Source: a virus
IMG/VR virus record: IMGVR_UViG_3300008259_003217
Location: 62,001 to 126,000 of that record
Direction: 5' to 3' (one strand)
Length of the DNA: 64,000 bases
Below, in pieces: positions 13,607 to 49,072 of the stretch. Position 1 is the stretch's first letter, and every line of letters starts with the position of its first letter. The translations under genes and the position numbers were made by a program. The notes below the pieces were generated by a model. The model saw nothing but the letters and a program-made list of their open reading frames with translations, was not told the DNA's origin and ran no database searches.

Positions 13607-14065
13607 ATGTCTAACGGTATAACATATGGTATAACATTTCCCTTTAGGGATTCTTTTGTTGGGAGGTATCTTGACGCTTCAGATACTATTGATGAAGAAA
13701 TTAGAAATAATCTAATTCATCTTTTATTAACTAGAAAGGGTAGTAGATATTTTTTACCAGATTTTGGTACAAGATTATATGAATATATATTTGAACCATT
13801 GGATGGACCAACATTTAGTGATATTGAGTTTGAGATTAGAGATTCGGTTGAAAAATACATACCAGGTATACTTATAACAAACATAAAAATAACTGACGCT
13901 TCGTTAGGTTTGGAAGACAAAGGTACTTATATTACGGATTCTGGTGAGAGAGAATTTAAGGTAACCAATATAGGTGATAGAGAACACACCGCTAAAGTTA
14001 GAATAGACTATAGAATAACCAATCAAGCTTTAGAAAGCAGTGATTTTGTAATTATTAACATATAA
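13607..14065 (+). CDS. GPW/gp25 family baseplate wedge protein
   Basis: 152 residues, the usual size for gp25. It builds the contractile sheath-baseplate interface. Typical family features are an N-terminal FPFRDS, the helix EEIRNNLIHLLLTRKGSRYFLPDFGTR cut here into LLLTRKGSRYFLPDFGTRLY as the core, EYIFEPLDG, and a C-terminal strand pair ending VRIDYRITN. The GSRxxxPDFGxxL signature is intact. It opens the tail gene block after a terminator and is followed at 1 nt by the gp6-like gene, as in many contractile tail operons. Confidence 0.88.
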   Translation: MSNGITYGITFPFRDSFVGRYLDASDTIDEEIRNNLIHLLLTRKGSRYFLPDFGTRLYEYIFEPLDGPTFSDIEFEIRDSVEKYIPGILITNIKITDASLGLEDKGTYITDSGEREFKVTNIGDREHTAKVRIDYRITNQALESSDFVIINI

Positions 14066-14066
14066 C

Positions 14067-15905
14067 ATGGCTGAAAAGAAAATATCGTACACAACAAGGG
14101 ATTTCCAGGGGATAAGAACTGAGTTGATTAATTTTACTAGAACTTATTATCCAGACCTAATTCAAAATTTTAACGACGCTGGTATTTTTTCAGTGATGTT
14201 AGATTTAAATGCTGCGGTAACCGACAACCTACAATTTCAAATTGATAGAAGTATCCAAGAAACAGTTTTACAATACGCTCAACAAAAATCTTCAGTATAT
14301 AACATAGCTAGAACATATGGTTTAAAAATCCCAGGACAAAGACCATCAGTCGCTTTGGTTGATTTCTCAATACAGGTTCCAGCTTTTGGGGACAGTGAAG
14401 ATTTAAGATATTGTGGTATTTTAAGAAGGGGATCTCAGGTTAGTGGAGCTGGACAACCATTTGAAACGGTATATGATATAGACTTTTCATCACCAGTTAA
14501 CTCTGAAGGATCACCAAATAGATTGAAAGTACCTAATTTTAACTCAGATGGGTCATTAAGTAATTACACCATAACAAAACGAGAAGTTGTTGTTAATGGT
14601 ATAACAAAGGTATTTAAAAGAATTATAACCGCTAACGATGTTAGACCATTCTTTGAGTTATTTTTACCAGAAAAAAACGTATTAGGTGTTACTAGTGTAT
14701 TACTCAAAGACGGTACACAATATAACACGATACCCCAACCACAAGAATTTTTAGGGTTAGATAATAGATGGTACGAAGTAAAAGCTTTAGCTGAGGACAG
14801 AGTCTTTATTGAGGACCCAACCAAAGTTTCTGACCAACCAGGGGTTAAAGTTGGGAAATATATAACTACTAACACAAAATTTGTTACCGAATATACACCT
14901 GAAGGATTTTTAAAAATGACATTTGGTGGGGGTAGTGTTTCAGCTGAAGAACAATTACGGGAGTTTGCTAGAAATGGAGCTTATTTTGATCTAAATAAGT
15001 ACTCAAATAACCTAGGATTGGGATCAGCTTTAAAATCAAACTCAACTTTATTTATACAGTATAGAATAGGTGGTGGACAAGCGACAAATTTAGGTTCTAA
15101 TGTGATCACACAAATAGGAACCGTCTCATTCTCCGTTAACGGTCCATCTGATAGTGAGAATAGATTGGTAATAAACTCATTAAAATGTAATAATGTTACC
15201 GCAGCTATTGGTGGATCTAACCAACCAACAGTTGAGGAGGTTAGACAATATGTATCATTTAACTTTGCGGCACAAAACAGAGCGGTAACGATTAATGATT
15301 ACGAATCTATTTTAAGAACAATGCCATCACAATTTGGTGCTCCAGCTAAGGTATCGGTATTGGAGGAAAATAATAAAATTAAAATAAAAATGTTATCATA
15401 CGACACCGAAGGTAATCTAACTGATAACATATCGAACACAATAAAATCAAACGTAGCTAATTACTTATCTAACTATCGAATGATAAATGATTACATTTCT
15501 ATAGAATCAGCTAGTCCAATAGATCTTAGTATTGAAGTTGACGTTGTTCTAGACTCAACACAAAACCAAGGGTCTTTAATTAGTAAAACAATAGATATTA
15601 TTAGTTCGTATTTTAGTCCATTAAACCAACAATTAGGTAGAAACATTAATGTGTCTGAAATTAGACGACTAATACAAAGTGAAAACGGGGTGATTAGTAT
15701 TTCCGATATTAGATTCTTTAATAAAGTTGGGGGTCAATATTCATCAAACCAAACGTCACAGAGATATTCCAACCCAACAACAAAACAAATAGAATTGGTA
15801 GCTGATACTATTTTCGCTGAACCAAGTCAAATTTATCAAATAAGATACCCAAATAAGGATATATCTGTCAGAGTTCTTAATTTTAAGAACATTAATTTCT
15901 CTTGA
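14067..15905 (+). CDS. gp6-like (gpJ family) baseplate wedge protein
   Basis: 612 residues. Baseplate wedge component linking the hub to the outer ring. The opening SYTTRDFQGIRTELINFTRT and the following NDAGIFSVMLDLNAAVTDNL are characteristic of T4 gp6/phage baseplate J proteins. A later segment NRAVTINDYESILR with IKMLSYD is the conserved J-family region, followed by PIDLSIEVDVVL and the helix-strand GRNINVSEIRRLIQS. Length is close to T4 gp6 (660). The start is 1 nt after gp25, indicating coupling. Confidence is high because of motif and neighbour agreement. Confidence 0.87.
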   Translation: MAEKKISYTTRDFQGIRTELINFTRTYYPDLIQNFNDAGIFSVMLDLNAAVTDNLQFQIDRSIQETVLQYAQQKSSVYNIARTYGLKIPGQRPSVALVDFSIQVPAFGDSEDLRYCGILRRGSQVSGAGQPFETVYDIDFSSPVNSEGSPNRLKVPNFNSDGSLSNYTITKREVVVNGITKVFKRIITANDVRPFFELFLPEKNVLGVTSVLLKDGTQYNTIPQPQEFLGLDNRWYEVKALAEDRVFIEDPTKVSDQPGVKVGKYITTNTKFVTEYTPEGFLKMTFGGGSVSAEEQLREFARNGAYFDLNKYSNNLGLGSALKSNSTLFIQYRIGGGQATNLGSNVITQIGTVSFSVNGPSDSENRLVINSLKCNNVTAAIGGSNQPTVEEVRQYVSFNFAAQNRAVTINDYESILRTMPSQFGAPAKVSVLEENNKIKIKMLSYDTEGNLTDNISNTIKSNVANYLSNYRMINDYISIESASPIDLSIEVDVVLDSTQNQGSLISKTIDIISSYFSPLNQQLGRNINVSEIRRLIQSENGVISISDIRFFNKVGGQYSSNQTSQRYSNPTTKQIELVADTIFAEPSQIYQIRYPNKDISVRVLNFKNINFS

Positions 15906-15976: not shown

Positions 15977-18900
15977 ATGCCTAAATCATATAGAATACGA
16001 ACACAAGTAGGTGTTGACAAATACATTAATCTCAAGTTAGAACAAGACTTTGAAACCTTGGAGATCTTATCATTAAAGATTAACCAAAGTGATATATACA
16101 CAAGAATTTGTTCTGATTATGGGGTCATTGTTGGTCGAGTATTTGTTAATGGGGGTTATGGGTTACCAAACGCTAAAGTATCTTTATTTATCCCGATAGA
16201 AGATTTGGATGAATTAAATCCGGTGGTTTCTGAACTATATCCGTATAAAACATTATCAACATTAAATGAAAACGGGTATAGGTATAATTTATTACCGAAA
16301 GAACCATCATATCCAGGACACTCAGCCACCGGGACATTTCCAACAAAGGAAGAAGTTCTTATTGATCAAACAACTATAGAAGTTTATGACAAATACTACA
16401 AATTTACGGTAAAAACAAACGATAGTGGTGACTACATGATATTCGGTGTACCAACAGGTAGTCAAACCATTTTCATGGATATAGATTTATCCGATATGGG
16501 TTGTTTTTCTTTGTCACCACAAGATTTAATACGTACGGGTCAAGCTAACGAAACCCAATTAAACGGTACAACATTTAAAACGTCAACAGATTTAAATGAA
16601 TTACCACAGATAAAGACATTAAATAAAATTGTTGAGGTCTCACCACTATGGGGTGAAGAAGACGTTTGTCAAATTGGTATCACCAGAGTTGATTTTGACT
16701 TAACAACTGAAAGTAGTGTTAAAATTGAACCAACCTCTATTTTTATGGGGTCAATAGTGTCAACATCAAATGATGACTATTTAAGTACTGGGTGTGTACC
16801 AAAATTGGACATGGGGAATCTTTGTGATTTAGTTTCCGGTCCAGGACAAATTCTATCAATACGACAAACAATAAATGTTGATGAGTTTGGGGATCCGATA
16901 CTAGAACAATATATTCTAGAAAATGATGGTAAAATTATTGATGAAAACGGAACGTGGTTAGCTAATCTACCAATGAACTTAGATTACATAACAACAGACG
17001 AGTTCGGTAATCAAGTAATTTCAAACGACCCAAGTGTTGGAATACCAACAAAATCAAAATATAGATTTAAGATTAAATGGCAAAATGAAACCGGGAATAA
17101 CAATAATTTTATTCGAGCTAATTACCTTGTACCAAACATTAGAGAATATGGATGGGACAACACTAGTTCAGATCCGAGTAACATAGTTCTAATACCTTAC
17201 GTTTCAAATATACCAGTACCCGATTATGAGGATAGTTTAACAATTGTTGGATCTGGTGACCTATTGGGACCTGTGGTGACATCAAACGTATTGACATTTA
17301 GTGTATTTATACAATCTAACCCACTATCAAGTCAGTCACCATACCTAGGGGACCCAAACTTGGGAATTACCGGATTAACAAACAATAATGTCGTAAATAT
17401 TATTTTTACACCAATAGACCCAACATTACCAGCTACAATAACATATCCTGGGGGTTCATTAGGACCTACAACATTCTCAATACCACCTAATACAATATCC
17501 ACGGTTTGGGGAGCGTTTACCCAACAAGGTGGTTTAGTGAGTGACACAACAACAAATGTACAATCATATATTGTGGAAATAGGACCATCTGGTTTAGGTC
17601 CATGGACATTATATTCAGGTAGTTTAAACTCAATTCCTGTTAATGTTGGTGAATTTGTAAGAATAACACCTACAGCTGTTGATATAAGTCAACCACAACA
17701 GGTTGTATATAGTTTTGGAAATCAAAATTATTTTAATTACATAAGATCATACGCTTTTAGTTTAGATTGGGATGACTATGTGGACAAAAATGTGGCTATA
17801 AACTGTGAGGATACATTTTATCAATTCCACTATAATAAAGTTTATACAGTATCGTCATTTATTGATAGGTACAAGAAAGGTAAAAATAAAGATAGACATT
17901 TGGGTATTAAAGAAATTACAGATAGACGGTGTCAAACTGAAAATAATAAATTCCCAGTAAACGACCTACAAAGAAATTTTGATTTTATTGAGTTTGTTGT
18001 ACAATTGCTTTTAAATATATTGACACTACCAATGATTGTGTTAATAACAATAGCTCATTTTGTGATAGTTTCTTGGCCTGTTTTAAAATGGTTGGTATCG
18101 ATTGGTATACCAATATGGTTAGGGTATCAAATCGCTCAAGCGATTGGAACCGCGATATACTCATTCCCAGCGGTGTTCATTGTAATACCACAAATAATCG
18201 CAGCTATTTTATATATTGCGTTATTAGTATTTTTTATTGTATATATAATACCTAGATTAGTTAACTGGAACACATTTAACAGAATTGGATTACCAATGTT
18301 AACATATCCAGATTGTGACGCTTGTCCGTGTGACCCATTATTAGCTAATTTAAATGAACCTGAAGACGACCTTGGTCAGGGAATTGTTGATACAAATAAT
18401 TCATTTTTAGCTGATACAACAGCCTCATACAACTACCAAAACCCAGAATTGGGGTGTAACCCAAGAAATCCGTATCAGAATCGTATTGATGAAGATGACC
18501 CAGGAGTCTCATTTGACGCTGCGGCACAATTCTACCAACTATTTTCTGGTATCGACAGACTAGGTAACCCACGTAGAGGTGTTACAGCTTTTTTAACAAA
18601 AAAAGGTACACCACCATCAGAATGGGGGTATCCAATTACCGAACATTGGCCAAACAAATTAAATAGATTTAACCTTAGAGATAAGTTTTTTTCAGGTAAA
18701 AACTTCATTAGAACTTACGTTAATAACGCTGATGATTACTTTGAGGATCAACCCTTGGTAATTGTCGTCGATTGGAATATGTATAACGCTTTCCAACCGG
18801 GAGAGATGATAACGTTCCAAAACCCAAGAATGTCTGGGGACATCCATAGAATTACAGGATTAACGGACTCAACTGGGGGTACACTTTATAATGAGTTTAA

Positions 18901-21727
18901 TTGTAGATCAATAACTGGGACAACATTACCACCTGGGGTACACGGTGTGAACATCGACTACGCGAATAGATTTTACGTTCCAGGAGACCCAACTCAACCA
19001 GCTAATAAAACAATAACAGTACCTATAAGTGCGAATACCGAAAATGGTAGTTATAGATTCCCAGCTGACATGGAGTATTTCCAAGTTATTACCGGTATGT
19101 CAATATCAAATTATCTGTCCATGTCTAACGAAATTAGTTCTGGTTTTTTCCCTAGAGAATATTTAAATCACATTGTTAAATGGAGATACGAACAATATCA
19201 AGGTAATAATGAATATGAACAACAAGCAAAAGCTTTAGATAATTTTTTTGACGGTCAAAATTTGGGTGTTATAATATTAACTAGAGGGGTTGATCCATAT
19301 ACCGATAGACAACTAATTAAATATGAATTAGGGACCTTATTCGGAAAAGCTGCAAATCAAGTTTCGGTGACTGGTTATTATAAACTAAATTATCCTATAC
19401 GAAGATATACCACAGGTAGTAATTTTACACCAGCTAGACATAATGTACCAACAAATGTAAATTATTTATCGTCGGGTAATGGTGGCAGAAGTCAATACCA
19501 CAAGTCTTTTAGTTTTACACCAGATTCCACATTGTTTAATCAATACACAAATAGTGGGTCCACATTACCGTATTACTACTCATCACTTGATTTTGAAAAT
19601 TCAGGCCTTGAAATGAGACACGTATTACCGTATTTTTCGGGACCATTACTCGCTGACACATCGGTCCAACCATATACCGGAATTGAACCTAATTATATTG
19701 ATGGGTTTAACTCAATTGATTGGTCAACGGGAGCGGAATATGATGTATTACCTTACAGAGGGGTAACTTCGGAGGTTTTATCCAATACGACAATTGGACC
19801 TATTGGGGTTTGTGGTGGTACGGCAGACGCTTGGGACGAAAGTCAATACCCAACCAAATTTATGTATGTGGGTGGTGGATCGTTCCTATCAACTTTCGGT
19901 AGTTATTTAGGTGACATTTCAGCGGAAGCTGATAATAACGGTGTTTGGTCAAATGATAATCAATCTGGTTACGCTATAAATCCACCAATAGCTGATGGAT
20001 TGAGATCCGGATCCTCCAATTACAAAGCCCAAACAAATACAATTTGGTATCTTTGTTCTCCAGCCTACATTAGTTATTACGACATACCATCAACTAGTTG
20101 TCCTAGTCCTTATTTGAATTGTAATACAAGTTCAGTTAAAGGTATTAATTTTAATGATAGATTTGGTATTGTTATGAGAAGTGATAGATTACCAACGTCA
20201 ACCAATTTGGAGAGCAAAGGCCCGTATATACCAGGTTATAACGGTGACCCGTACACTAGATTTGTTTTACATGAAAACAACTCTTTCATGTATTATAAAA
20301 TACCAGATGAAGGGATTTGTGATACAATATTCCAATACCAACTACAGTCAGACGACCCAAATAATATATTAGTTGATTCAGGTATACCAGAATCGTTAGC
20401 TGGTAGTTTAACATGTGAAGGTATGACTGAATTATCATGTTACGATGGTTACGGGACTGGTTTTACGGTAAATGAAACATGTGCTGATAATGATAAAGTA
20501 ATTAATGGATGTTATTATTTATTGAACGAACCATATGTCAGTAGTATCGGTTCTGACATTGAATTATTTTTGGAATGGAAAGCTAGATTTAGAATAATGT
20601 ACGCAGCTTGTCGTGGAGTATTTTCACACATGTTCCAAAATAATTGGGTTAACGGAACACTATACATGCCGACATTTAATAAGTTGACATTATATGATGA
20701 ATTTGGTGAATTTACAGACTACAAATATTGTGAAGAGATAATAAACTATAATACAGCTAGTAATAGTTTCTTTTATCGATCTACCCCATATAGAATATCC
20801 CCAGCTGTTGGGTTTATTGGGTCACAAAGTACCAGTCCATCCGATAATTCGGTAAATAATAGACAGATAAAAACACCAACAACCATCATGGATTTGGGTA
20901 AAAGGGATGAATTCATATCCTACATATGCTCAAATCCGGAATTTAGTGGGGAATACTTATCAGATACACTAACAAGCTCATCATACAATGATTCATCATT
21001 AGTATTACAGTTGGGTATAATATCTAGACTCGTTAACTCAACGTGGCTACAACAGATCTTTAATACAAATGACGCTTCAGTACAACAATATTTTTCAAGA
21101 ACAGGTTCTAGAATTGATGGTGATATCGCTCAGTCAATGTCAATAAATTCTGAATACCAAATAAACCCATTTGTTGGATCGAACTACCCAGATCAGTTTA
21201 TTTGGGTTGGGGTTGACTCGGCTAATAAACCGGTTTTTGGTGTATTTTACAATACTAGTGAGGATCAATACAAAAACAGGAGAGCTTTGTCACCCGGATA
21301 TAAAATTTATAATTTTTCACCCTTATTACAGGATCTAATACCATATAATAGTACACAAGAAGTTCCACTATACCGTTGGACACTAAATGATAATAACACT
21401 ATTTTTGGTAATGAATTTAACAATTGGGACACATCCTGGGTTTTGGGGTCAAGTAGGTTACCATCAAGAAAATACCAATCACTGGACACAAGTAATAACG
21501 TCTCACCATTTAACTATTTTCAAACATCTACTATGACAGCAGTACCACCAAATTTACAGTATGGTTTTATTACTAATATTGATTCTTCTGGTAATCCAGT
21601 AATAAATGGAACACCATTACAAAATAAATTTATAGTGGGAGCTCCATACCATTTTTACTTTGGTTTAAAAAACGGTAAAACAGCTGTGAATAGATTTATA
21701 AAATTATATGTAAATATTATCGACTAA
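15977..21727 (+). CDS. Giant tail/baseplate structural protein with internal hydrophobic block
   Basis: 1916 residues, the largest product here. Residues about 40-200 (YGVIVGRVFVNGGYGLPNAK, then NDSGDYMIFGVPTG) resemble a carboxypeptidase-regulatory-like beta sandwich as found in fibre and adhesin proteins. A second beta-rich region spans about 430-580. Residues about 668-762 contain three or four long hydrophobic helices (FVVQLLLNILTLPMIVLITI; IIAAILYIALLVFFIVYIIP), followed by a cysteine knot-like PDCDACPCD near 780. The rest is aromatic- and asparagine-rich, typical of beta-structured virion proteins. It follows gp6 and precedes five more structural genes. Peripheral baseplate or tail-tip role is inferred; transmembrane-like helices in a virion protein are unusual and might enter the host membrane. 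Confidence 0.6.
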   Translation: MPKSYRIRTQVGVDKYINLKLEQDFETLEILSLKINQSDIYTRICSDYGVIVGRVFVNGGYGLPNAKVSLFIPIEDLDELNPVVSELYPYKTLSTLNENGYRYNLLPKEPSYPGHSATGTFPTKEEVLIDQTTIEVYDKYYKFTVKTNDSGDYMIFGVPTGSQTIFMDIDLSDMGCFSLSPQDLIRTGQANETQLNGTTFKTSTDLNELPQIKTLNKIVEVSPLWGEEDVCQIGITRVDFDLTTESSVKIEPTSIFMGSIVSTSNDDYLSTGCVPKLDMGNLCDLVSGPGQILSIRQTINVDEFGDPILEQYILENDGKIIDENGTWLANLPMNLDYITTDEFGNQVISNDPSVGIPTKSKYRFKIKWQNETGNNNNFIRANYLVPNIREYGWDNTSSDPSNIVLIPYVSNIPVPDYEDSLTIVGSGDLLGPVVTSNVLTFSVFIQSNPLSSQSPYLGDPNLGITGLTNNNVVNIIFTPIDPTLPATITYPGGSLGPTTFSIPPNTISTVWGAFTQQGGLVSDTTTNVQSYIVEIGPSGLGPWTLYSGSLNSIPVNVGEFVRITPTAVDISQPQQVVYSFGNQNYFNYIRSYAFSLDWDDYVDKNVAINCEDTFYQFHYNKVYTVSSFIDRYKKGKNKDRHLGIKEITDRRCQTENNKFPVNDLQRNFDFIEFVVQLLLNILTLPMIVLITIAHFVIVSWPVLKWLVSIGIPIWLGYQIAQAIGTAIYSFPAVFIVIPQIIAAILYIALLVFFIVYIIPRLVNWNTFNRIGLPMLTYPDCDACPCDPLLANLNEPEDDLGQGIVDTNNSFLADTTASYNYQNPELGCNPRNPYQNRIDEDDPGVSFDAAAQFYQLFSGIDRLGNPRRGVTAFLTKKGTPPSEWGYPITEHWPNKLNRFNLRDKFFSGKNFIRTYVNNADDYFEDQPLVIVVDWNMYNAFQPGEMITFQNPRMSGDIHRITGLTDSTGGTLYNEFNCRSITGTTLPPGVHGVNIDYANRFYVPGDPTQPANKTITVPISANTENGSYRFPADMEYFQVITGMSISNYLSMSNEISSGFFPREYLNHIVKWRYEQYQGNNEYEQQAKALDNFFDGQNLGVIILTRGVDPYTDRQLIKYELGTLFGKAANQVSVTGYYKLNYPIRRYTTGSNFTPARHNVPTNVNYLSSGNGGRSQYHKSFSFTPDSTLFNQYTNSGSTLPYYYSSLDFENSGLEMRHVLPYFSGPLLADTSVQPYTGIEPNYIDGFNSIDWSTGAEYDVLPYRGVTSEVLSNTTIGPIGVCGGTADAWDESQYPTKFMYVGGGSFLSTFGSYLGDISAEADNNGVWSNDNQSGYAINPPIADGLRSGSSNYKAQTNTIWYLCSPAYISYYDIPSTSCPSPYLNCNTSSVKGINFNDRFGIVMRSDRLPTSTNLESKGPYIPGYNGDPYTRFVLHENNSFMYYKIPDEGICDTIFQYQLQSDDPNNILVDSGIPESLAGSLTCEGMTELSCYDGYGTGFTVNETCADNDKVINGCYYLLNEPYVSSIGSDIELFLEWKARFRIMYAACRGVFSHMFQNNWVNGTLYMPTFNKLTLYDEFGEFTDYKYCEEIINYNTASNSFFYRSTPYRISPAVGFIGSQSTSPSDNSVNNRQIKTPTTIMDLGKRDEFISYICSNPEFSGEYLSDTLTSSSYNDSSLVLQLGIISRLVNSTWLQQIFNTNDASVQQYFSRTGSRIDGDIAQSMSINSEYQINPFVGSNYPDQFIWVGVDSANKPVFGVFYNTSEDQYKNRRALSPGYKIYNFSPLLQDLIPYNSTQEVPLYRWTLNDNNTIFGNEFNNWDTSWVLGSSRLPSRKYQSLDTSNNVSPFNYFQTSTMTAVPPNLQYGFITNIDSSGNPVINGTPLQNKFIVGAPYHFYFGLKNGKTAVNRFIKLYVNIID

Positions 21728-24304: not shown

Positions 24305-25366
24305 ATGGAAGAACAAAAGTATTATTTTAAAATATCACCTGAAAATATAAAGGGTGATTTAATTACGGTAACATATACCGGTGATGGTGAAACGTTTTAC
24401 ACTATTGACCCATGTTGTTTGTTTACAGCTTCGACCACCGAATATCTAACCGGAACCACCGGTGTATATACTGGTATGACCAACATATTAAGTGGGGGTA
24501 CTGGAGGTACATCATTATTGACCGGATTAACCATACCAATAATGTTCACCCAAACAGCTATTGACATTGGGTACTACTCAACATTTGACGGAGCTGTATT
24601 ACAGAAAGATGTTATTCAAAACTTTTTGTTTTCAGGATCCACAATGTCCCCAACCACATATTCCCTATATAATACATCAGACTTAGAATTTAAAAAGTTT
24701 TTGGAATTGGTGACATATGTTATTGACTGGGCGGTATCTAAAACGGTAACAGTACCATTTACAAATATTGTACCTTTTAACCCACAGGGAACCGCTACAT
24801 TTACCCCATCAGGTGGTAATTGGTCTGGAACCCCAATAAGTTATGATTATATATTTACAGGGGACTCAAATACAAATATAAATGACTTTGTAAGTAGTAA
24901 TTACATATCTGTACCATTTCTCGTTACTGGATACACAGAATCAACAGTTAATGACTTAATACAGTATGGACCCAAGTATAATCTATATGGGGGTAAATTT
25001 AAATTGGGTATTCCAGTAACTGGAACATCAGGTAATGTTGGGATATATTGGGGACCGGACCCAAGTGGATCATATACCGCTTACACCATAAGTGATATTG
25101 ATTATTATGACTACGAGGATGGAACTACATTATACATTACACAATCATCTGGATTGACGTTAAATGACATGATATTGTCAGCGATTACAAAGAATGAAAG
25201 TTACCTTAACATCATTGACCAACCAGAGGTTCAAACAAACGTGTATGTTGATAGGGGTAAGTTGACCGCTCTTGAATATATTGAAAGACTGGGGGAGGTA
25301 GATAATCTGGGTGACTTAGTTAAATACGGTTATGGGTTTTTCAAAGTTAAAAATGACTATAATTAG
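24305..25366 (+). CDS. Tail/baseplate structural protein, threonine/glycine-rich
   Basis: 353 residues, not recognised. The first third is Thr/Gly-rich with a repeated TG(T/M) pattern (TEYLTGTTGVYTGMTN) typical of beta-helical or fibre linkers. A middle region has GKFKLGIPVTGTSGNVGIYW, and the C-terminus (IIDQPEVQTNVYVDRGKLTA, LEYIERLGEVDNLGDL) looks like an interaction helix used to dock into a baseplate. The last codons and stop lie within a 23-bp sequence that recurs exactly at 57276. A late-like promoter follows immediately. Confidence 0.6.
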   Translation: MEEQKYYFKISPENIKGDLITVTYTGDGETFYTIDPCCLFTASTTEYLTGTTGVYTGMTNILSGGTGGTSLLTGLTIPIMFTQTAIDIGYYSTFDGAVLQKDVIQNFLFSGSTMSPTTYSLYNTSDLEFKKFLELVTYVIDWAVSKTVTVPFTNIVPFNPQGTATFTPSGGNWSGTPISYDYIFTGDSNTNINDFVSSNYISVPFLVTGYTESTVNDLIQYGPKYNLYGGKFKLGIPVTGTSGNVGIYWGPDPSGSYTAYTISDIDYYDYEDGTTLYITQSSGLTLNDMILSAITKNESYLNIIDQPEVQTNVYVDRGKLTALEYIERLGEVDNLGDLVKYGYGFFKVKNDYN

Positions 25367-29300: not shown

Positions 29301-29328
29301 AAACTTTAATATATTATGTAATAACTAA
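26311..29328 (+). CDS. Baseplate protein with tail-protein-I-like segment
   Basis: 1005 residues. A central region (about 430-490: YYRNLILNSAYLFKSKGTRK, then SIEILLRLVGAPEALVEF) resembles phage tail protein I and related baseplate components, where a kSKGTr-xx-i-xx-LL motif precedes a short helix. Another helix-rich part is YGRSFDETKMFISALSNMNS. The C-terminal 95 residues (from 29050) form a small beta/alpha module that has a recognisable copy at the C-terminus of the next gene's product. Cysteines near 860-900 (CNSCKITG, DCPTQFIEC) may form a metal or disulfide site. Likely a wedge or fibre-docking protein. Confidence 0.65.
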   Translation: MAIKKYTCPPQLPSGEGSFSDNLVGFQLVAGGGLTQANFEFTTALSEKKDRTFTIGAFSDPISLNSMNIDSVEESRTILAKNFRVYPNFDLSQVSNFTLYGSLSKRMSVSITKIINYFPAALQVYSQQPNFGTYYSAFNIVYDQVENETTFDINLDNLYNTFDIDYTTNADRNFELKEIEVSPLRNFTKNYLKYSLFFYDNEYPIVYYSPIDPSADTKLTVVVLGNPFSGNTTITDPYNLRPNKLTTNKSFNEDFDEVEKFLLNRMVVPEYTATFILPKENDDGSFSITNEILTFPKEGPWNLDIKTRKFDEYLGKLNEYTNLLDEYRTNLISRFLTTGALKEFDTSDQKFEKLLQIYGRSFDETKMFISALSNMNSVNYNIGNDIPSQLLKNLAQTLGWKTNISPISNDELLNSVFNTGSNEFTGWSRGMTPDELNYQYYRNLILNSAYLFKSKGTRKSIEILLRLVGAPEALVEFNEHVYLADQKIDMDEFGVQYAKISGGTYVQELPVLDTTDIFSIMGVKYTGFTTSLISSDVQTTILDYPINENGYPTNPQFSENFFFQKGGGWFESTPQHRMPEQVDLTNSVFTGSNPNYQTILQPFNYGEEYLNRYRDFPYMDLGFRLRKTIDNNKSWSNDVGPLRNTSDGNFNAYYIAYDENLVLNVKNVDIFLNPSQGLVYDVWSMSRKYNYPIPEEGLNYIQPTYCNPNPNTPYPQRGGIDWTEIIPKPKQKTFFEFAQTFWKNTINVRNRQYINDGKTGGYPTLQSIYWRYLESQESINVPNDNFTYRTMIDYVNGLGDYWLRLVEQMVPATTLWNGGVRLENSIFHRQKFVWRRQAGCQLLPVPCNSCKITGQIFVYDCPTQFIECGLYPWSNNSLTTSFGVVLSDTLNTYAINNGLDLNNDCVLSTLETNWYVDIRIGGVILNVYPFYIGYGLTYSSSIPTNQQWVSALSEALDELQDSGLSYFIDQTKETVSVYNNNCIPIDPTDTIEINVGINFNILCNN

Positions 29329-31520
29329 TGGGATTCATTTCAATATATAACTTATCCGTAACCGGGGACTGTACCAACAGTGGTTTAGGAGCGGTATCAT
29401 TTGATATAGCTGGGGATAGCCCAACGTTCACTGTGTACGAAGCTACAACAACTGGGTTATTACCAACATCTGTTGGTGTGACCGGTTATTCAGCTAATAA
29501 TCTAACTGGGTTTAGTTATTTTGTATACATACAAGACGCTACACCAGATCCACCAAGTATATATGGGTTTAACATTTCCAGTGGTATAACCGTAAGTCTA
29601 TCATCCAGTGGTAGTACATGTGGGAATGACAACGGATCTATAACCGCTACAACACAATCAGTTTTTGGGTCTAACAGTTATACCCTATATGATATATCAG
29701 GTAATGTTTTAGATGTTAAAAATGGTGGTACGTTTGCGGTATTTGACCCAGTTTCAGCTGACACATATTATGTCACAGTAAGTGATGAGGGTGGATGTTC
29801 CGGAACAAGTGAAACCGTATTAGTATACACATCAAATACCCTTAATTTTGGAACATATGTTGTTGATAACTATGGTTGTTCTGGAATACCAAATGGTAAA
29901 ATATATATAACTGGGGTTACAGGCACACCACCATACACATATAGTTGTATTGGTCAAACCGGATCAACAATTACCGGACTAACAGAAGGGTTTTACCCAG
30001 TTACAGTTACGGATTCACTTGGTTGTTCCGTAACTAATATTACAGGTGTTGGAAAAGTAGATAATGTGAGTATTGGGTTAATAACAGCTACCCAACCCAG
30101 TTGCTTTGGTAGTGATGGTGACGTGACAGTACAGTTATTGGGTGGAACCGGACCATTCTTCTACTCAGGATCCAACGGGGAAAACATAATATCATTCTCA
30201 ACATCATATACATTCACAAATGTGTCGTCAGGTGTATTTAATGTGTTTGTCCAGGATTCTGGATTTTGTGCAACATCTGGATCAACAAACGTCATTACCA
30301 CCAATAGTTTTAGTGTGACAAATATCACGGTAACAAATTCTTTTTGTAGTAATTTAGACGGGTCTATAAGTGTTACACTAAATTCTGGTGTACCATCCGG
30401 AACATATAGTTACCAATTAATCGATTCCTCTGGGAATACTGTATTTGACATTAATGAAAATACAATATTTAACTATAACGGATTATCCAGTGGAATTTAT
30501 ACATTGATAATTGATGATGGTGTTTGTACATATACCGAAATAATTGAAATTAAAAATGTTGACAAATTTAGAGTCAACACCACCGTAACAAATACAACCT
30601 GTGGACTTAATAATGGGTCAGTTAAAATAATAGCTACAACTGGGGGGATTATCCCATATACATACCAAGTTGTTGGACCAACTAGTAGTCCCGTTACATA
30701 CCCATACCAAGTGTCAAACACCTTTAACGGGTTAGCACCTGGAACATACACCGCTTATGTTTTAGACTCAGTTGGATGTATTCAAACAACCAATTTCTAC
30801 GTTAACCCAAGTCAAAATGTATTTTTCACTCTATTACCGTTTGATCCGGTAACAGGTAATGATGGTCAAATATCAACGATGATAACCAGTGGTTCACCAC
30901 CGTTTACATATCTTTGGTCACCAGGTGGTCAAACAACACCATCAATAAATAACCTATCAGCGGGTACATATACCCTACAAGTAGTTGATTCGGACGGATG
31001 TTCACTGACTAAATCAGTGATTTTAAAAGGTACTAAATTGGTATCATCATATGAAACATATACGGTTTGTGAAAAAGTTTTTAAAAACACCGGACAATTA
31101 GGTAAACGGGGGATATTACAAATGTTTAATGAAGGTTTTTATGATCTAACTTTGAACGACTATGGATGTATTATCAACTCAGCTCAATTTATTGTTGAGG
31201 TTAAAATTGACGACAGCGTGATTGAAAATACGTTCTACACCTCATCTGGAATTACAGATTACCCAACCGAATTACAATATCTAGATACTGTTAGACAAAC
31301 TTTACAACAATTCCCAGGTGTTGGTAATGTTGATTTTGATGTAAATAATAATGAAATTATAATATATAACGATTGTGCCGAAATCCAAGAATCTTGTCAA
31401 CCATATTCATTTAACCAATACGATGGGTCTAATTTTATTATTAACTTGAAAATAGTTTATGATATATCATGTATTGATTGTGGACTACCACCAATAACCA
31501 CCACAACGACAATTCCATAA
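29328..31520 (+). CDS. SprB-repeat adhesin-like tail protein
   Basis: 730 residues containing about six tandem SprB-type repeats of 70-80 residues: each begins with a C-G-x-N-x-G-S pattern (TTCGLNNGSVKI; PSCFGSDGDVTV) and ends in G-x-Y-x-V-x-V-x-D-x-x-G-C (GTYTLQVVDSDGC). SprB repeats are known from gliding-motility adhesins and other surface proteins of Bacteroidetes. The C-terminal about 95 residues (from 31185) match the C-terminal module of the preceding protein, and the chain ends in a TTTTTIP linker motif that recurs in later fibre genes. Inferred role: long receptor-binding or adhesin fibre borrowed from the host. Overlaps both neighbours by 1 nt. Confidence 0.78.
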   Translation: MGFISIYNLSVTGDCTNSGLGAVSFDIAGDSPTFTVYEATTTGLLPTSVGVTGYSANNLTGFSYFVYIQDATPDPPSIYGFNISSGITVSLSSSGSTCGNDNGSITATTQSVFGSNSYTLYDISGNVLDVKNGGTFAVFDPVSADTYYVTVSDEGGCSGTSETVLVYTSNTLNFGTYVVDNYGCSGIPNGKIYITGVTGTPPYTYSCIGQTGSTITGLTEGFYPVTVTDSLGCSVTNITGVGKVDNVSIGLITATQPSCFGSDGDVTVQLLGGTGPFFYSGSNGENIISFSTSYTFTNVSSGVFNVFVQDSGFCATSGSTNVITTNSFSVTNITVTNSFCSNLDGSISVTLNSGVPSGTYSYQLIDSSGNTVFDINENTIFNYNGLSSGIYTLIIDDGVCTYTEIIEIKNVDKFRVNTTVTNTTCGLNNGSVKIIATTGGIIPYTYQVVGPTSSPVTYPYQVSNTFNGLAPGTYTAYVLDSVGCIQTTNFYVNPSQNVFFTLLPFDPVTGNDGQISTMITSGSPPFTYLWSPGGQTTPSINNLSAGTYTLQVVDSDGCSLTKSVILKGTKLVSSYETYTVCEKVFKNTGQLGKRGILQMFNEGFYDLTLNDYGCIINSAQFIVEVKIDDSVIENTFYTSSGITDYPTELQYLDTVRQTLQQFPGVGNVDFDVNNNEIIIYNDCAEIQESCQPYSFNQYDGSNFIINLKIVYDISCIDCGLPPITTTTTIP

Positions 31521-31843: not shown

Positions 31844-33052
31844 ATGGCTTTTTTAACTGACCAAACATTAGCTTCTGGTGTAACATTAAACGATCTTATA
31901 CACATCGTAATACCAACCGACATATCACAAGGAAACCCAGCTGGATCCTCATATAAAGCTACAATTGAACAAGTAATATCCGGATTTACCGGAACAACAT
32001 TATATGAAGTTGGACCCGGAACGGACTCAACACAACGAATTGGGACATCATCAGACTCATCCGGTAATTGTTCTGTCGTTAGTGGTGGTATCAGTAATAC
32101 TGTATTAGGTTTAGCTGGATTTGTTGGTGGAGGTGGATTTAACACCGTCAGTGGGGACAGATCCGTGATAACCGGTGGTGGTGGATCATGTCCAGCGTTG
32201 GGTAATAAAACTTTATGTAATTATAATTTTATTGGTGGTGGTATACAAAATGTTGTTAATGGTACTTTTTCATCAATTGTTGGTGGGGGGTCAATATTAC
32301 TGGCTAACGGGAATATAATAAACTCTTGCTATTCGACAATAGTCGGAGGGTGTAGAAACGTGATAAATCATAACTTTTCAACAGTAATCGGAAGTAACAT
32401 ATCAACACAATCAGCTTGTACGGTACATATAAATAATTTATTGATAAAGAATACACCACCACAGGACCAAACCGCTACCGATTATTTAGTTAGGGATACC
32501 ATATCTGGAATGGTAAAATATAAAACAATTCCTGGACCAACAGTTTTTGGTCTATATGCTCAAACAGGAAATAGTATTACAGTATCTGGCACAACATCAG
32601 AATTAAGTATTATTGGACCTGGTGTGGGTACATTAAACGTTCCAACAAACGGATTTTCTGTTGGTGATTCTTTTGTTGTTAGGGTATCCGGTGACTTAGG
32701 TGCTAACAATGGTGACGATTTAACACTACGAGTAAAATCAGGTTCTGCTGAATTTGGTGTTGTTGGACCACTTAATATGCCAAATGTTACGTCATCACAT
32801 TTTTCTTTTGAAGTAACATTTACTATTAGAGCTGTGGGTACTGCTGGAAATGCAAAAATACAATCTTCGGGTTTCTTTACATTTACACAAAATGCCGGTG
32901 GTACCTTTGAAGGTGATAATTTTAGTACTTTAAATCAAACTACTTTTGATACGACAATCCCAAATCAACTTGACATTACAGCACAGTTCAATTCAACAAA
33001 CGCAGCTAATTTCATTTTTACTGAAATATTAGTTTTAAATAAGATTTATTAG
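31844..33052 (+). CDS. Tail fibre / receptor-binding protein with YadA-head-like repeats
   Basis: 402 residues. After an N-terminal attachment region (MAFLTDQTLASGVTLNDLIH) comes a beta-roll array with units such as SVVSGGISNTV, SVITGGGG, FIGGGIQNVVNGTF, SIVGGGS, TIVGGCRNVI and TVIGSN. This G-G-x-x-N-x-V repeat resembles trimeric autotransporter (YadA-type) head repeats used in phage fibres. The C-terminal domain (about 235-402) is an all-beta jelly-roll-like region (FVVRVSGDLG, FSFEVTFTIRAVG) as in TNF-like receptor-binding tips. It has its own late-like promoter and is followed by a glycosyltransferase. Likely a trimeric fibre recognising the host surface. Confidence 0.7.
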   Translation: MAFLTDQTLASGVTLNDLIHIVIPTDISQGNPAGSSYKATIEQVISGFTGTTLYEVGPGTDSTQRIGTSSDSSGNCSVVSGGISNTVLGLAGFVGGGGFNTVSGDRSVITGGGGSCPALGNKTLCNYNFIGGGIQNVVNGTFSSIVGGGSILLANGNIINSCYSTIVGGCRNVINHNFSTVIGSNISTQSACTVHINNLLIKNTPPQDQTATDYLVRDTISGMVKYKTIPGPTVFGLYAQTGNSITVSGTTSELSIIGPGVGTLNVPTNGFSVGDSFVVRVSGDLGANNGDDLTLRVKSGSAEFGVVGPLNMPNVTSSHFSFEVTFTIRAVGTAGNAKIQSSGFFTFTQNAGGTFEGDNFSTLNQTTFDTTIPNQLDITAQFNSTNAANFIFTEILVLNKIY

Positions 33053-33087: not shown

Positions 33088-34059
33088 ATGAAAGATATTC
33101 TATTTGTAACGGCACAACCAGATGTCCCATACTTCCATTGGCAATCCAAGGTATATGTTCATAATTTCATACAAAACGGGATTAAACCTGAAAATATTCA
33201 TATAATTTTTGGATTAGTTAACGGTAACCACACACCCTCAGAAGAAGGTGAAAAATTAAGGGACATGGGTGTTAATGTACACTTTTATATTGATGATAGG
33301 GAAAAAAAATCATACATACCCAGTATTAAACCATTTCTAATACATAAATGGATTAAAGAAGATGAAAGTCGAGGTGACTTATTTTTTCTACATGACGCTG
33401 ATATTATTTTCAGAGAACTTCCAGATTTTGATTCATTATTGAAAGATGGTATAACATACATGTCAAATACAATTTCATACATTGGGTATGAGTATATAAT
33501 AAGTTGTTGTCGTAAATACGAAAACCAACACATTAGTACTTACAAAAATGAATTATTTGAGGAAATGGCTGAGGTTGTTGGGATTGACATTAATGTAATA
33601 AAAGATAATCAGGAAAATTCAGGTGGTGGTCAATACTTAATTAAAAATACGAATAGTGATTTGTGGTGTAAAATATATTGTGATTGTACACCACTATACG
33701 ATCAAATGATGGATTACCAAAAAAGATTCCCAATAAACCCAGGTCAAATACAGTTTTGGACAGCGGAAATGTGGTCATTGTTATGGAATTTATGGTTACA
33801 TAATGTTGAGACTAAAGTTACCGATAAGTTAGATTTTTCCTGGGCTACTGACACAATAGAAAAATATGAAAAATCACCAATATTACACATGGCTGGTGTT
33901 ACCGAAAATTTAAAAAGTACAAAATTCTACAAAGGGGATTACATTAATGTCGACCCTTTAGTTAAATTATCGGAAGATATTAGACATTTTGATTATATAG
34001 ATCCGGAAAGTTCCACAATAAAATACATAGAAGTGATGAAGTCATACTTAAAAAAATAA
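33088..34059 (+). CDS. Putative glycosyltransferase (GT-A, DxD) in the fibre cluster
   Basis: 323 residues. N-terminal MKDILFVTAQPDVPYFHWQS and a following alternating strand-helix pattern lead to a metal-binding motif FFLHDADIIF with D103-x-D105. A later GGGQYLIKN stretch and WTAEMWSLLWNLW resemble the acceptor half of GT-A enzymes that trim or add sugars on proteins. No signal peptide or membrane segment, so it would act in the host cytoplasm. It sits inside the tail-fibre block between two adhesin genes, suggesting that it glycosylates virion fibres; this is inference. It does not look like a close relative of the transferase at 5637. Confidence 0.6.
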   Translation: MKDILFVTAQPDVPYFHWQSKVYVHNFIQNGIKPENIHIIFGLVNGNHTPSEEGEKLRDMGVNVHFYIDDREKKSYIPSIKPFLIHKWIKEDESRGDLFFLHDADIIFRELPDFDSLLKDGITYMSNTISYIGYEYIISCCRKYENQHISTYKNELFEEMAEVVGIDINVIKDNQENSGGGQYLIKNTNSDLWCKIYCDCTPLYDQMMDYQKRFPINPGQIQFWTAEMWSLLWNLWLHNVETKVTDKLDFSWATDTIEKYEKSPILHMAGVTENLKSTKFYKGDYINVDPLVKLSEDIRHFDYIDPESSTIKYIEVMKSYLKK

Positions 34060-34088: not shown

Positions 34089-36035
34089 ATGGGTGCTATA
34101 TGGTCGGTTAAAAATACCGGAACAACAGTTTATAACGGATTTAATTTTGTTGATGGATACGGTACGTCGAAGGTTATTAACCTACAACCAAGTCTGACCT
34201 ATTTTTTATTTTCATTTTCAGTAACATCACCATCACTTGACGTTACTGTATCATTTTATAATAAGACAGACACCACATATTGTTTTAGTGGTTGTTGTGA
34301 TGGGGAACTAATATCCTTTAAGGGGGTAAGTACCTCCCCAGTGTTTAGTTCGGCCACAATTGGACAAACGTATTATTTTAATCAAGCCATATCATCATCA
34401 AACCCAAACCAAAATTTTAGTGGTTGTTTTGAATTGGTTAGTTTTGGTAATAACCAGAGTCCACCAATCTATAGTTGTGATCCAGACCTATATGTGGATG
34501 TGACAACATTATCGTTTGATGAGGTTTTATATTATCATTGTGTATTATGTGAACAATCAAACCCGTGTCCACAACCACCAATATCACCGTCACCCACACC
34601 AACCCCAACACCAACCCCAACACCCACTCAAATACCACATGTAACCACAACCACAACAATACCATATTTTAAACCAAACCCAATACCAATTAAACGAGGT
34701 AATGAGTGTGACGTACTTACATTATATCCCATGGGTGTTAAATGTTTATCGGTAGACCCGTCAACCAATACATCTTTTGATGGTCTATTAACATTGGTAA
34801 TTACAGGTGGAACCCCACCATACCAAATAAATTGGGAAAATGGAAGTGTTAGTACGGTGTTAAGTGATTTAAATGTTGGTGAATATCCAGCAACTGTTAC
34901 CGATTATTATGGTGATTTTATTGTTAGAACAACCTGTATTTTAGAATCACAAGTAACTACAACAACAACACTTATACCTGTAACCACAACAACAACAATA
35001 CCGTTTGGTGAAACCTTATGTTTAACATATATTCAGTCGATAGCAATATTCAATCTAATAACAAACGAATATGAGATTAAAGACACGGTTTATCAAGAAG
35101 TATTATACCCTAATGGATTAATAAATGGTCAACAACAATGGTTATCACTAGGTGGTGATTATGAATTATATTGGAACACAGGAATAACATCCAATTGGAT
35201 TATTGACGGACCATTCCCTGGACAATTCGTAAACTCAAATCCAGTCACACCACCAGTCGTTGGGTGGCAACCAGTTGGAGCGTCAATAATATCCTCAGTA
35301 ATTGTTAATGTGGGTCAGTGTAAACCACTATCAATAATAAACTTCAAAGTAGTTGAAAGTCAACCAATATGTGGTAATGATGGTAGTATAATTATTAACG
35401 CAACGACAGGTGTACCACCATATGAATATTCAATAAATGGAGGAGTGACATATCAATTAGCACCAACATTTATGAACCTATCACCAGGAACTTATTTGAT
35501 CTTTGTAAAAGATTCAACAGGAAGTGTGAGTAACACAACAGCTACATTAGTACCAGCACCAACATCGGTCTATAACCTAACATTATCATTAGATGTAAAT
35601 ACAAATTCATTTACAATATCACTGGATAACCCACTACCAATTGGGACATCAATATCATTTGAATTAAACCAACAAAGTGTATTTAAATATTGGAAAAGAG
35701 CTATTGATCCGGTACCAACATACGATTGTGTGGTGACAGTTAATGGTTATGGTCAATTACCAATAGATTCCGGTACGTCAGCTATAATACCATCATTAAA
35801 TGGTTGTCCACCGTTATTCACTGGTATCCAGGAAATCTATAATAGATCCGGAACATTTGTTATAACCGGAAATAACACCATAACTGGAACATATACCGAC
35901 GACATTTTAACACCAAATATTGGGTTCTGTAAAGGAAACAATTTGAGTATGTCTTTATCCATCGGTACGGTAGATGTTACCAATTGTGATTGTTGTGAAA
36001 TTTTGGTCAATAATCCACCTAAAAAGATATTCTAA
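34089..36035 (+). CDS. Multi-domain tail fibre/adhesin with Pro-Thr hinge and SprB repeats
   Basis: 648 residues. An N-terminal beta domain (about 1-155, with FSGCCDGELISFKGV) is joined by a (PT)n hinge (about 166-180) and a VTTTTTIP linker to an SprB-like repeat (TGGTPPYQINWENG ... GEYPATVTDYYGD), another TTTTT linker pair, a beta domain, and a second SprB-like repeat (CGNDGSIIINATTGVPPYEY ... GTYLIFVKDSTG). The C-terminus ends in a Cys-rich TNCDCCEI. The domain-linker-domain design is that of an extended surface adhesin. Probably part of the virion host-recognition apparatus together with its neighbours. Confidence 0.68.
   Translation: MGAIWSVKNTGTTVYNGFNFVDGYGTSKVINLQPSLTYFLFSFSVTSPSLDVTVSFYNKTDTTYCFSGCCDGELISFKGVSTSPVFSSATIGQTYYFNQAISSSNPNQNFSGCFELVSFGNNQSPPIYSCDPDLYVDVTTLSFDEVLYYHCVLCEQSNPCPQPPISPSPTPTPTPTPTPTQIPHVTTTTTIPYFKPNPIPIKRGNECDVLTLYPMGVKCLSVDPSTNTSFDGLLTLVITGGTPPYQINWENGSVSTVLSDLNVGEYPATVTDYYGDFIVRTTCILESQVTTTTTLIPVTTTTTIPFGETLCLTYIQSIAIFNLITNEYEIKDTVYQEVLYPNGLINGQQQWLSLGGDYELYWNTGITSNWIIDGPFPGQFVNSNPVTPPVVGWQPVGASIISSVIVNVGQCKPLSIINFKVVESQPICGNDGSIIINATTGVPPYEYSINGGVTYQLAPTFMNLSPGTYLIFVKDSTGSVSNTTATLVPAPTSVYNLTLSLDVNTNSFTISLDNPLPIGTSISFELNQQSVFKYWKRAIDPVPTYDCVVTVNGYGQLPIDSGTSAIIPSLNGCPPLFTGIQEIYNRSGTFVITGNNTITGTYTDDILTPNIGFCKGNNLSMSLSIGTVDVTNCDCCEILVNNPPKKIF
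34586..34629 (+). repeat. Pro-Thr coding repeat (PT hinge)
   Basis: Tandem CCAACA/CCCACA-type hexamers encoding alternating Pro and Thr. Related hexamer tracts occur at 36784 and, on the other strand, at 40107 and elsewhere, giving short homologies between fibre genes. Confidence 0.75.
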
Positions 36036-36049
36036 ATATTTATTCGTAA

Positions 36050-38668
36050 ATGGCGTACATAATTAAAAATACAAGTGGTTTGGTAAATACCAGAGTAACA
36101 GATACCGGTAGACAGAAACTATCCCAGGGCAACTTCAATATAAAGTATTTCCAAATCGGTGATAGTGAAATATCGTACAACAAACTACCAGAGTTATATA
36201 ACTACCCCAATAGTTATGTACTTGAACCACCATTTAACACACAAAATAGTACAGGTATTCCACAATCAACAAAACACAGTATAAAATATCCATATTTTGT
36301 TGACGGTACTAGTGGGAATACATATGGTATACCATATATGGATTCGGTGGTTGATTCTGTGTATAACAGAGCACCATTAAGAGGATTTTTTACCGGGAAC
36401 ACAACAGCTGACACAATTAGTTGGAGTGCTTTAACTAGTGATAGGTATGTTATAAGTGCAAACTACGTTGTTGACATGTCAAAACTCGACGGGTCAAATA
36501 CTATTGATGTCATATACTCTGGTTGTAATACAACAAACATTAAAAAACCAAGTGTTGGTGATATAATAACTATTTTTTATGATGGAAAGTCATCATATAA
36601 CTGTGAATGTACAAATTTACCAGTACCCACACCAAGTCCAACACCGACAATAGACTCATGTAACATTTTAACAGAATTAACTGAGAATCTAATGACCGAA
36701 AATGACGATAATTTAATTTATTGTGATGAATCATCATTAGGTATTGGAAATGGGGGTGGAAATGGTTTAGGATCACCCGAAACATCACCAACACCAACAC
36801 CCACACCAACACCCACACCAAGTTCAACAAAAGATTACCCTTGTATATCACCTTCCCCAACACCTACACCAACCAAAACACCTTGTTTGTCACCAAGTCC
36901 AAGACCTGTGTGTCCACCAGAACCAGAAGTTAGTTGTTTAGTGTCATTAAATTCATGTTATCCAATCCTAACCTATAAAATAGTTGGTGTTTGTGGTAAT
37001 AAGTTAACTTTAGATAGACCAACACCAAATTTACTTGGGTTATTACCTGGATGTATCGCTAGAACGTTGATATACCCACCAAATATGACGACTTTATATG
37101 ACAGTGTAACACCTAGACCACACTGGAGTACGGACGCTATTAATTTTGAAACTGTTTGTGATATTGATGAGTTTGATGTTAAAATTTGGAATATGAATAT
37201 TCCATGGACGGAGAATCCAGCTGGATTAAATTATAACACTTTTGAGGATTATACCAAGTTTGGATCGATTGATTACATAGGTACAAAAGAGTATTTGGGT
37301 TATAACTCTAGTTTGGGACAGTCAGATACAAGTAGAACATTTTATTATAATTCATTTGATGAGATTATTGAGGTTAAACCAGAAGAACAAAAATGTGTCT
37401 CAATAGTACACTACACCAACCAGACCATAGATTTATTTTATGGTGAAAAGTTTGCGTTGGAACCATACGACCCAACAAACCCACAGGACACTACCGGTCA
37501 AGCTAGGAATTTTAAATTCCATGTTCCGTGGTTAATGTGGCACAAAAACCCTGAATGTTGTTTTGGTGAAACTTTTTGGGTTGACCCACCTGGATTTGAT
37601 GATAAAGACCTATTTAAGGTACAATACATTAAATCCAAGAAGAATTCAGATATGAATCAACCAGGAATTAGATATTACCATTTATGGGACACAAACCCTA
37701 ATTCTGATGGTATACCAAATAGAGTTGGTAAAGTATTCCCAGACAATAAAATGGTGGTAATTGATGACGAAGAGTTGGTAGCTGCTATGTCATACAAATC
37801 AAATAGGAATTGGACACTACCAGCACCACAAATATCACTAATAACACCAAATACATGCGATATAACAACTAGTTTAACTGGTATTATTACAGGTAGTAGT
37901 CAAACGTTGTATGTTACATATAGGTTATCAAACACTGTGGACTTCACAAACTCCCTACACTGTAATTATTACTCAAAAATAACAGAAAGTAACATATGTA
38001 CTCCAGAAACTTCAAAAAACGTAGCGATTAGATTTGGTGGGGAATTCCAATGTTTAACACAACCTGACTATGTACCAGTCACCACCACAACAACAATTAA
38101 TCCTGTTGTCACCGAAACAACAACAATTTGTCCAACAACCTGTGACATTCCAAACGGATATTACGCTGATACATTTGAAATTATATGTCAATTAGTACCT
38201 ACAGGTCAAAGACCTGATTCATCACTTTGGAAAATAATTGATTATACATCAGCGATTTCAGATCAATTCTTAAATGGGTATGTTACGGAGACTTCACTTA
38301 CCGGGACTACATTTATAATTACACCCGAATTATATAACACAGCACCGTATTATAACCTAAATGATTATGTTGAATTGGTACCTAACGGAACGACCGGTTT
38401 GAATTTAAATTTTGGTGATGAATATTATTTTTACGGATCACTGGAGTCAGACATTCAAGCCACAATTTACGAGATGAGGTATAAGATAAATCTGAATGAT
38501 ACTGAATTCCAAAACACAACAAACCCAACCTGGACCCCAGGAACCAAATCTTATATTACCGAAATAGCTCTATTGGATGAGAATAAAGATATACTTGTTA
38601 TGTCGAAACTACAATCACCAACACTAAGAACCGGTATACAACAGTATTTGGTTAAAATAGATTTTTAA
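36050..38668 (+). CDS. Tail-collar-fibre-like protein with large inserted domains
   Basis: 872 residues. The N-terminus (NTRVTDTGRQKLSQGNFNIK, YFQIGDSEI) looks like the start of phage tail-collar fibre domains (TxxGRxxL ... xxxIGDG), and the very C-terminus (SYITEIALLDENKDILVMSK) looks like the conserved end of the same domain (xEIGLxDxxxxL). Between them lie (PT)n and PSPTPTPT hinges (about 187-290), a large beta domain (about 300-660, with FHVPWLMWHKNPECCFGETF) and a TTTTTIN linker near 690. This suggests one fibre domain expanded by insertions. A TATTTAT box lies only 2 nt before the ATG. Likely host-recognition fibre. Confidence 0.62.
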   Translation: MAYIIKNTSGLVNTRVTDTGRQKLSQGNFNIKYFQIGDSEISYNKLPELYNYPNSYVLEPPFNTQNSTGIPQSTKHSIKYPYFVDGTSGNTYGIPYMDSVVDSVYNRAPLRGFFTGNTTADTISWSALTSDRYVISANYVVDMSKLDGSNTIDVIYSGCNTTNIKKPSVGDIITIFYDGKSSYNCECTNLPVPTPSPTPTIDSCNILTELTENLMTENDDNLIYCDESSLGIGNGGGNGLGSPETSPTPTPTPTPTPSSTKDYPCISPSPTPTPTKTPCLSPSPRPVCPPEPEVSCLVSLNSCYPILTYKIVGVCGNKLTLDRPTPNLLGLLPGCIARTLIYPPNMTTLYDSVTPRPHWSTDAINFETVCDIDEFDVKIWNMNIPWTENPAGLNYNTFEDYTKFGSIDYIGTKEYLGYNSSLGQSDTSRTFYYNSFDEIIEVKPEEQKCVSIVHYTNQTIDLFYGEKFALEPYDPTNPQDTTGQARNFKFHVPWLMWHKNPECCFGETFWVDPPGFDDKDLFKVQYIKSKKNSDMNQPGIRYYHLWDTNPNSDGIPNRVGKVFPDNKMVVIDDEELVAAMSYKSNRNWTLPAPQISLITPNTCDITTSLTGIITGSSQTLYVTYRLSNTVDFTNSLHCNYYSKITESNICTPETSKNVAIRFGGEFQCLTQPDYVPVTTTTTINPVVTETTTICPTTCDIPNGYYADTFEIICQLVPTGQRPDSSLWKIIDYTSAISDQFLNGYVTETSLTGTTFIITPELYNTAPYYNLNDYVELVPNGTTGLNLNFGDEYYFYGSLESDIQATIYEMRYKINLNDTEFQNTTNPTWTPGTKSYITEIALLDENKDILVMSKLQSPTLRTGIQQYLVKIDF
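36784..36831 (+). repeat. Pro-Thr coding repeat (PT hinge)
   Basis: ACACCAACACCC-type tandem units encoding alternating Thr and Pro; a second, less regular tract continues to about 36905. Same composition as the hinge in the preceding fibre gene. Confidence 0.75.
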
Positions 38669-46347: not shown

Positions 46348-46358
46348 AAATAAATAAA

Positions 46359-49071: not shown

Positions 49072-49072
49072 T

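Follow-up and report, generated by a model that had tools for sequence, protein, structure and literature searches.

What role does a repeat family of bacterial surface adhesins play among the tail genes of a phage, and how did it get there? This question is raised by the 730-aa SprB-repeat protein encoded at 29328-31520 in a 64,000-nucleotide stretch of viral DNA (hereafter the window), which covers bases 62001-126000 of the 159,868-bp virus record IMGVR_UViG_3300008259_003217. An earlier note on this stretch had described the protein as about six SprB-type repeats encoded in a tail operon, and had proposed that it serves as a receptor-binding or cell-attachment fibre and is a direct sign of domain capture. 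Based on the computation of homology, unit number, synteny, purifying selection, tip variability, C-terminal paralogy and Bacteroidota expression signals, the answer that we favour, as moderately probable, is that the product is a structural component of the contractile tail in a large family of uncultured phages of Bacteroidota, where it would most likely form an elongated fibre or whisker on the baseplate or close to it.

Seven SprB units and a C-terminal domain

The open reading frame (ORF) runs from an ATG at 29328 to a stop at 31518-31520, exactly as first described, and the SprB assignment is upheld by the hidden Markov model search that had been suggested as a check. With the Pfam family PF13573 (SprB, curated cut-off 28 bits), the 730-aa protein scores 67.8 bits (E 6e-19), with four stretches that pass on their own, and the product of the gene at 34089, in which further copies had been correctly announced, scores 44.6 bits over two stretches. 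A six-frame search of the whole contig gave six SprB matches, all within these two genes, and the same search gave zero matches in 14 control genomes.

The number of repeats, on the other hand, had to be revised. The protein was cut by alignment into seven units of ~80 aa, whose position-specific profiles were compared with each other and with a bacterial set (1,150 SprB repeats from 80 loci, nearly all titled Bacteroidota), and all seven proved to be SprB-related (hhalign 96-99.6% against the bacterial SprB profile, R2 being the weakest). Together with a C-terminal domain and a 12-aa tail, these units account for the entire protein. The C-terminal domain is shared with the protein encoded immediately upstream, at 26311 (hhalign 97.0%, E 1e-10), while the controls, namely the C-termini of seven other genes of the cluster and unit R7, give 0.1-0.6%. 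An AlphaFold2 model built with 54 sequences (mean predicted local distance difference test, pLDDT, of 80.1; an earlier model with 11 sequences was poorer, with 66.8) predicts a chain of beta-rich immunoglobulin-like (Ig-like) units followed by an alpha/beta C-terminal domain. Its best fold matches in the PDB are cryo-electron microscopy fragments of the Aureispira grappling hook protein GhpA (E 2e-18), which is also matched by sequence profile.

A fixed shaft and variable tips

Relatives were collected from the IMG/VR viral contigs, in which a single-sequence scan found 13 and an alignment scan 157 confirmed relatives (80 were kept); the synteny and tip counts given below cover 78 loci. In every one of the 78, the homologue of gene 26311 is followed after 2-67 bp by the SprB match, a relative of gene 34089 lies downstream wherever there is room of more than 7 kb (52 of 52 loci), and SprB matches over the cut-off are present in 15 of the 15 relatives tested. 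The window contig is a contractile-tail phage, encoding a tail sheath and two baseplate wedge subunits, and its SprB gene lies within the tail cluster, as the earlier note had placed it.

Residues 1-718 can be aligned over their whole length throughout the family (54 sequences, 36-86% identical to the window protein), and this alignment shows no unit gained or lost. In a comparison with the relative L019, which is 86% identical, the SprB gene has a ratio of nonsynonymous to synonymous substitution rates (dN/dS) of 0.05, comparable with the tail neighbours (0.01-0.08); the ratios of genes 26311 and 34089 are 0.04 and 0.13. These values are approximate, since synonymous changes are close to saturation. 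Strong purifying selection acts on the shaft, and its seven units are constant.

Past residue 718, the family carries a variable extension of 0-514 aa, which exceeds 60 aa in 38 of the 78 loci and then usually begins with a long Thr/Pro-rich linker. Some of these tips are DUF285/BspA repeats (149, 168 and 475 bits), and several resemble portions of other genes in related phages. A conserved shaft with a variable distal module is a property of the family, the window protein itself carrying only the 12-aa stub. Gene 31844 is likewise variable beyond its N-terminus in all but near-identical relatives, the N-terminus being kept. Since the SprB part is strongly conserved and the variation lies in the tips and in gene 31844, the SprB part behaves like a structural shaft; the tips and gene 31844 are more likely than the SprB repeats to carry specificity, and gene 31844 is likely to be a specificity determinant.

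Some further observations concern the tips. In L009, L029 and L070 the SprB protein is joined via a Thr/Pro linker to the DUF285/BspA repeats, and similar modules also occur within a minus-strand gene of the relatives L088 and L092. The idea that the window phage has lost its tip by a frameshift, with the remnant lying downstream of the SprB gene, was considered and rejected, the downstream frame being a separate, conserved 100-aa gene.

Proposed function and rival explanations

In the mechanism that we propose, the seven in-line Ig-like SprB-type domains would act as a rigid spacer of constant length within the virion, and the C-terminal domain, common to the upstream tail protein, would probably be an assembly or oligomerisation interface. 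In about half of the relatives, a flexible Thr/Pro-rich linker and an exchangeable tip (DUF285/BspA-type or other modules) would follow this domain, the tip making contact with the host cell surface or with polysaccharide on it. The window phage lacks the tip and carries only a linker stub, and contact would therefore probably be made by the variable fibre encoded nearby, in gene 31844, and by the product of gene 34089, which is the second SprB protein. The fibre role proposed in the earlier note fits this anatomy, but receptor binding by the repeats fits less well, the SprB repeats being conserved (dN/dS 0.05) and the tips and gene 31844 variable.

Several points weigh against this reading. 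The sole PHROG match of the protein, a weak one, is to phrog_26672 (virion structural, E 9e-4), of the class head and packaging, and head decoration proteins and neck whiskers are likewise matched by individual Ig units; because of these matches, the placement at or near the baseplate is tentative. With GhpA the global template-modelling score (TM-score) is only 0.19, a low value of the kind to be expected when chains of many domains are flexible, and the similarity is meaningful only at the level of single domains. A prophage or bacterial version of the gene was sought and none found, with no relative in 84,980 bacterial and archaeal genomes, in a scan by two short peptide patterns which distant or degenerate prophage copies could escape. 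Finally, the host phylum is assigned from expression signals and repeat type, and is accordingly a probable one.

Among the other explanations, it seems unlikely to us that the SprB repeats are themselves the receptor-binding or cell-attachment elements, binding for example glycans or host SprB-type adhesins. Such a role would be in keeping with the adhesion that Ig-like modules can mediate on gut phages of Bacteroidota (PMC13370021), with the naming of the gliding machinery as likely phage receptor of Flavobacterium columnare (PMC7345892), and with the occurrence of SprB matches in all relatives tested and of the second SprB gene wherever there is room for it. Nevertheless, the repeats are under purifying selection equal to that on the neighbouring tail genes, their number is fixed, and the variation sits elsewhere. 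We regard as quite improbable the more elaborate idea that the SprB-type shafts engage the SprB-type adhesin coat of the host, by homotypic contact or mimicry, with the Thr/Pro linkers as joints for tip exchange between tail genes. Possible phage receptors in Bacteroidota are said to include SprB and RemA (PMC13288928).

We also give a low probability to a decoration of the head, neck or sheath (an Ig-like whisker) in place of a baseplate fibre. The class of the PHROG match and the weak profile matches to Ig-like decoration and neck-whisker proteins (9occ, 5lxk, 8zvi) speak for it, but the position of the gene is fixed directly behind a tail/baseplate-region gene with a common C-terminal domain, and the C-terminal tips vary as those of tail fibres do. 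A host-display adhesin or cargo (a moron), produced by the infected cell for export to its own surface, would have its precedent in the bacterial SprB proteins, which are secreted adhesins (PMC13288928). This explanation was rejected and is very improbable: a simple hydropathy scan, which is not a dedicated predictor, found no strongly hydrophobic N-terminal segment in the family, Pfam gave no C-terminal sorting domain of the type IX secretion system but only an internal Por_Secre_tail match below the cut-off, and the gene is locked between tail genes in all 78 relatives. The preferred explanation remains a probable shaft of a tail fibre.

Origin of the repeats

That the repeats belong to the type found in Bacteroidota adhesins, as the earlier note had recognised, is borne out by their distribution. 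SprB is found over the cut-off in 11 of 61 sampled Bacteroidota genomes and in 1 of 150 genomes from the phylum of a Methylococcales metagenome-assembled genome (MAG), the sole match being the seed genome. An SprB-repeat gene had been observed on a contig labelled as this MAG (L144), which is likely to be mis-binned Bacteroidota.

The view of the repeats as a direct sign of domain capture was not supported in the form first given. In median scores, each unit reaches ~98-120 bits against its own orthologues and at most ~54 bits against other phage units or bacterial repeats; judging from these sequences, the phage family's common ancestor already had all seven units, in diverged form. Because they were already fixed in that ancestor, they are unlikely to be a recent capture from the present host, and a recent capture from a host adhesin was rejected as unsupported. 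In the suggested phylogeny of the repeats, most phage units fall in groups of their own, with bacterial repeats interleaved; ~85 columns give low resolution and do not settle donor or direction. The approximately unbiased test does not reject a tree in which the phage units form one clade (p 0.48), again with too few columns for identifying a donor. A capture of the repeats from Bacteroidota is plausible.

Neighbouring genes, phage and host

The features of the locus are collected in Table 1. The 100-aa gene behind the SprB gene has tblastn matches in 47 of the 78 loci, most of them immediately behind the SprB gene, and possibly encodes an assembly chaperone or a small tip protein. The second SprB protein consists of an N-terminal domain, TPTPT/TTTTTIP linkers and two SprB units. 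The variable part of gene 31844 has Gly-rich repeats, and in L018 ~7 kb of other sequence separates the start of this gene from gene 33088. The latter is very conserved amid the fibre genes and contains an HDADIIF motif reminiscent of glycosyltransferases; a glycosyltransferase role (modifying the Thr/Pro linkers) found no support in PDB profile, Pfam and NCBIfam searches.

Table 1. Coordinates in the window of the SprB gene, its parts and other genes of the tail cluster
Feature	Position	Strand	Remarks
Baseplate wedge subunit	13607..14065	+	phrog_261, E 3e-16
Baseplate wedge subunit	14067..15905	+	phrog_219, E 7e-23
Upstream tail/baseplate-region protein, 1005 aa	26311..29328	+	78/78 relatives; C-terminus paralogous to C-terminal domain of SprB protein
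SprB-repeat tail gene, 730 aa	29328..31520	+	Pfam SprB 67.8 bits; model; synteny 78/78
Unit R1, aa 1-90, divergent SprB/Ig-like	29328..29597	+	hhalign probability 97.3 to bacterial SprB; all-beta in model
Unit R2, aa 91-166, most divergent	29598..29825	+	probability 96.5 to bacterial SprB, 98.1 to R6
Unit R3, aa 167-245	29826..30062	+	probability 99.6 to bacterial SprB profile
Unit R4, aa 246-324	30063..30299	+	probability 99.2; best SprB Pfam stretch aa 253-285
Unit R5, aa 325-409	30300..30554	+	probability 98.4 to bacterial SprB profile
Unit R6, aa 410-494	30555..30809	+	probability 99.2 to bacterial SprB profile
Unit R7, aa 495-568	30810..31031	+	probability 99.4 to bacterial SprB profile
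C-terminal domain, aa 569-718 (150 aa)	31032..31481	+	paralogous to C-terminus of gene 26311
12-aa tail GLPPITTTTTIP	31482..31517	+	linker-like stub
Small gene, 100 aa	31520..31822	+	overlaps SprB stop (TAATG); absent from ATG ORF list
Hypervariable fibre gene	31844..33052	+	N-terminus conserved, remainder highly variable
Conserved gene	33088..34059	+	phrog_4417 (unknown function)
Second SprB gene, 648 aa	34089..36035	+	Pfam SprB 44.6 bits, two stretches
SprB unit 1 of gene 34089	34683..34937	+	SprB search; unit tree
SprB unit 2 of gene 34089	35328..35582	+	Pfam SprB; SprB search; unit tree
Tail-region gene with TPTPT linkers	36050..38668	+	

The replication genes of the phage include UvsX, DnaB and ribonucleotide reductase. 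Promoters of the form TTTG-N18-22-TAnnTTTG and scarce Shine-Dalgarno sites are signals of Bacteroidota. In the window phage, promoter-type sites of this form are observed 13 times (4.7 expected), several of them directly upstream of ORFs, and a Shine-Dalgarno-like 4-mer precedes 1 of 51 genes, compared with 9.6% of random sites; because of these signals, the host phylum is probably Bacteroidota. No isolate relative was found in a phage collection of 50,697 records, in which the tail protein 26311, used to look for the closest isolate, also gave no match.

Other genes of these phages have features of their own. A tail sheath protein (G000 45990-49217; L022:5990-9217) is unusually long, with 1,075 aa and the sheath domain confined to its C-terminal third, its nearest records being a 484-kb uncultured phage and Microcystis phage Mel-JY01 (~30%). 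A 1,916-aa gene behind the baseplate wedge (15977-21727) has several hydrophobic, membrane-helix-like segments mid-protein and no match in Pfam and PHROG searches. The gene at 24305-25366 is ~38 residues shorter than in the near-identical contig L007 and the relatives (391 alignment columns for 353 aa).

Comparison with known systems

A0A6J5LD72, from an uncultured Caudovirales phage (BFVD/UniProt), matches the window protein over its full length in both fold and sequence (31% identity, E 1e-57) and belongs to the same family; it already bears the name "SprB repeat" in UniProt, as a database name only, and no paper dealing with such repeats in phages was found in the literature searched. Among the 50,697 phage records, the SprB consensus matches only the huge uncultured genomes LR756502 (642 kb) and LR745206 (635 kb), the former being also the only match of the window protein (30%). 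These genomes are much larger and unannotated, and the likeness is a match to the SprB consensus, not an established orthology. The BACON and PKD proteins of gut phages and Hoc of T4 share the use of modular Ig-like domains, in the former case on phages of Bacteroidota (PMC13370021), but belong to other Ig families, and SprB is unmentioned in that paper. Strings of Ig-like domains are also found in GhpA (PDB 9flp, 9flw, 9fly and others), which differs in being a bacterial surface protein of 5,898 aa in which the common C-terminal domain is not seen.

This work defines a widespread tail component of an uncultured phage family, in which a Bacteroidota-adhesin module would act as a conserved, virion-type shaft with interchangeable tips. 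The SprB tail gene can serve as a marker for such phages, and the division into shaft and tip offers a rule for predicting which part sets the host range. Compared with the Bacteroidota adhesins of PF13573, such as SprB of Flavobacterium, the phage protein has the same repeat family over the curated cut-off, but it is far shorter, with seven units, fixed in number and strongly diverged from each other; it is encoded in a tail operon and has neither the signal-peptide-like N-terminus nor the C-terminal sorting domain of the bacterial proteins. One repeat family thus apparently serves cell-surface machines as well as phage tails.
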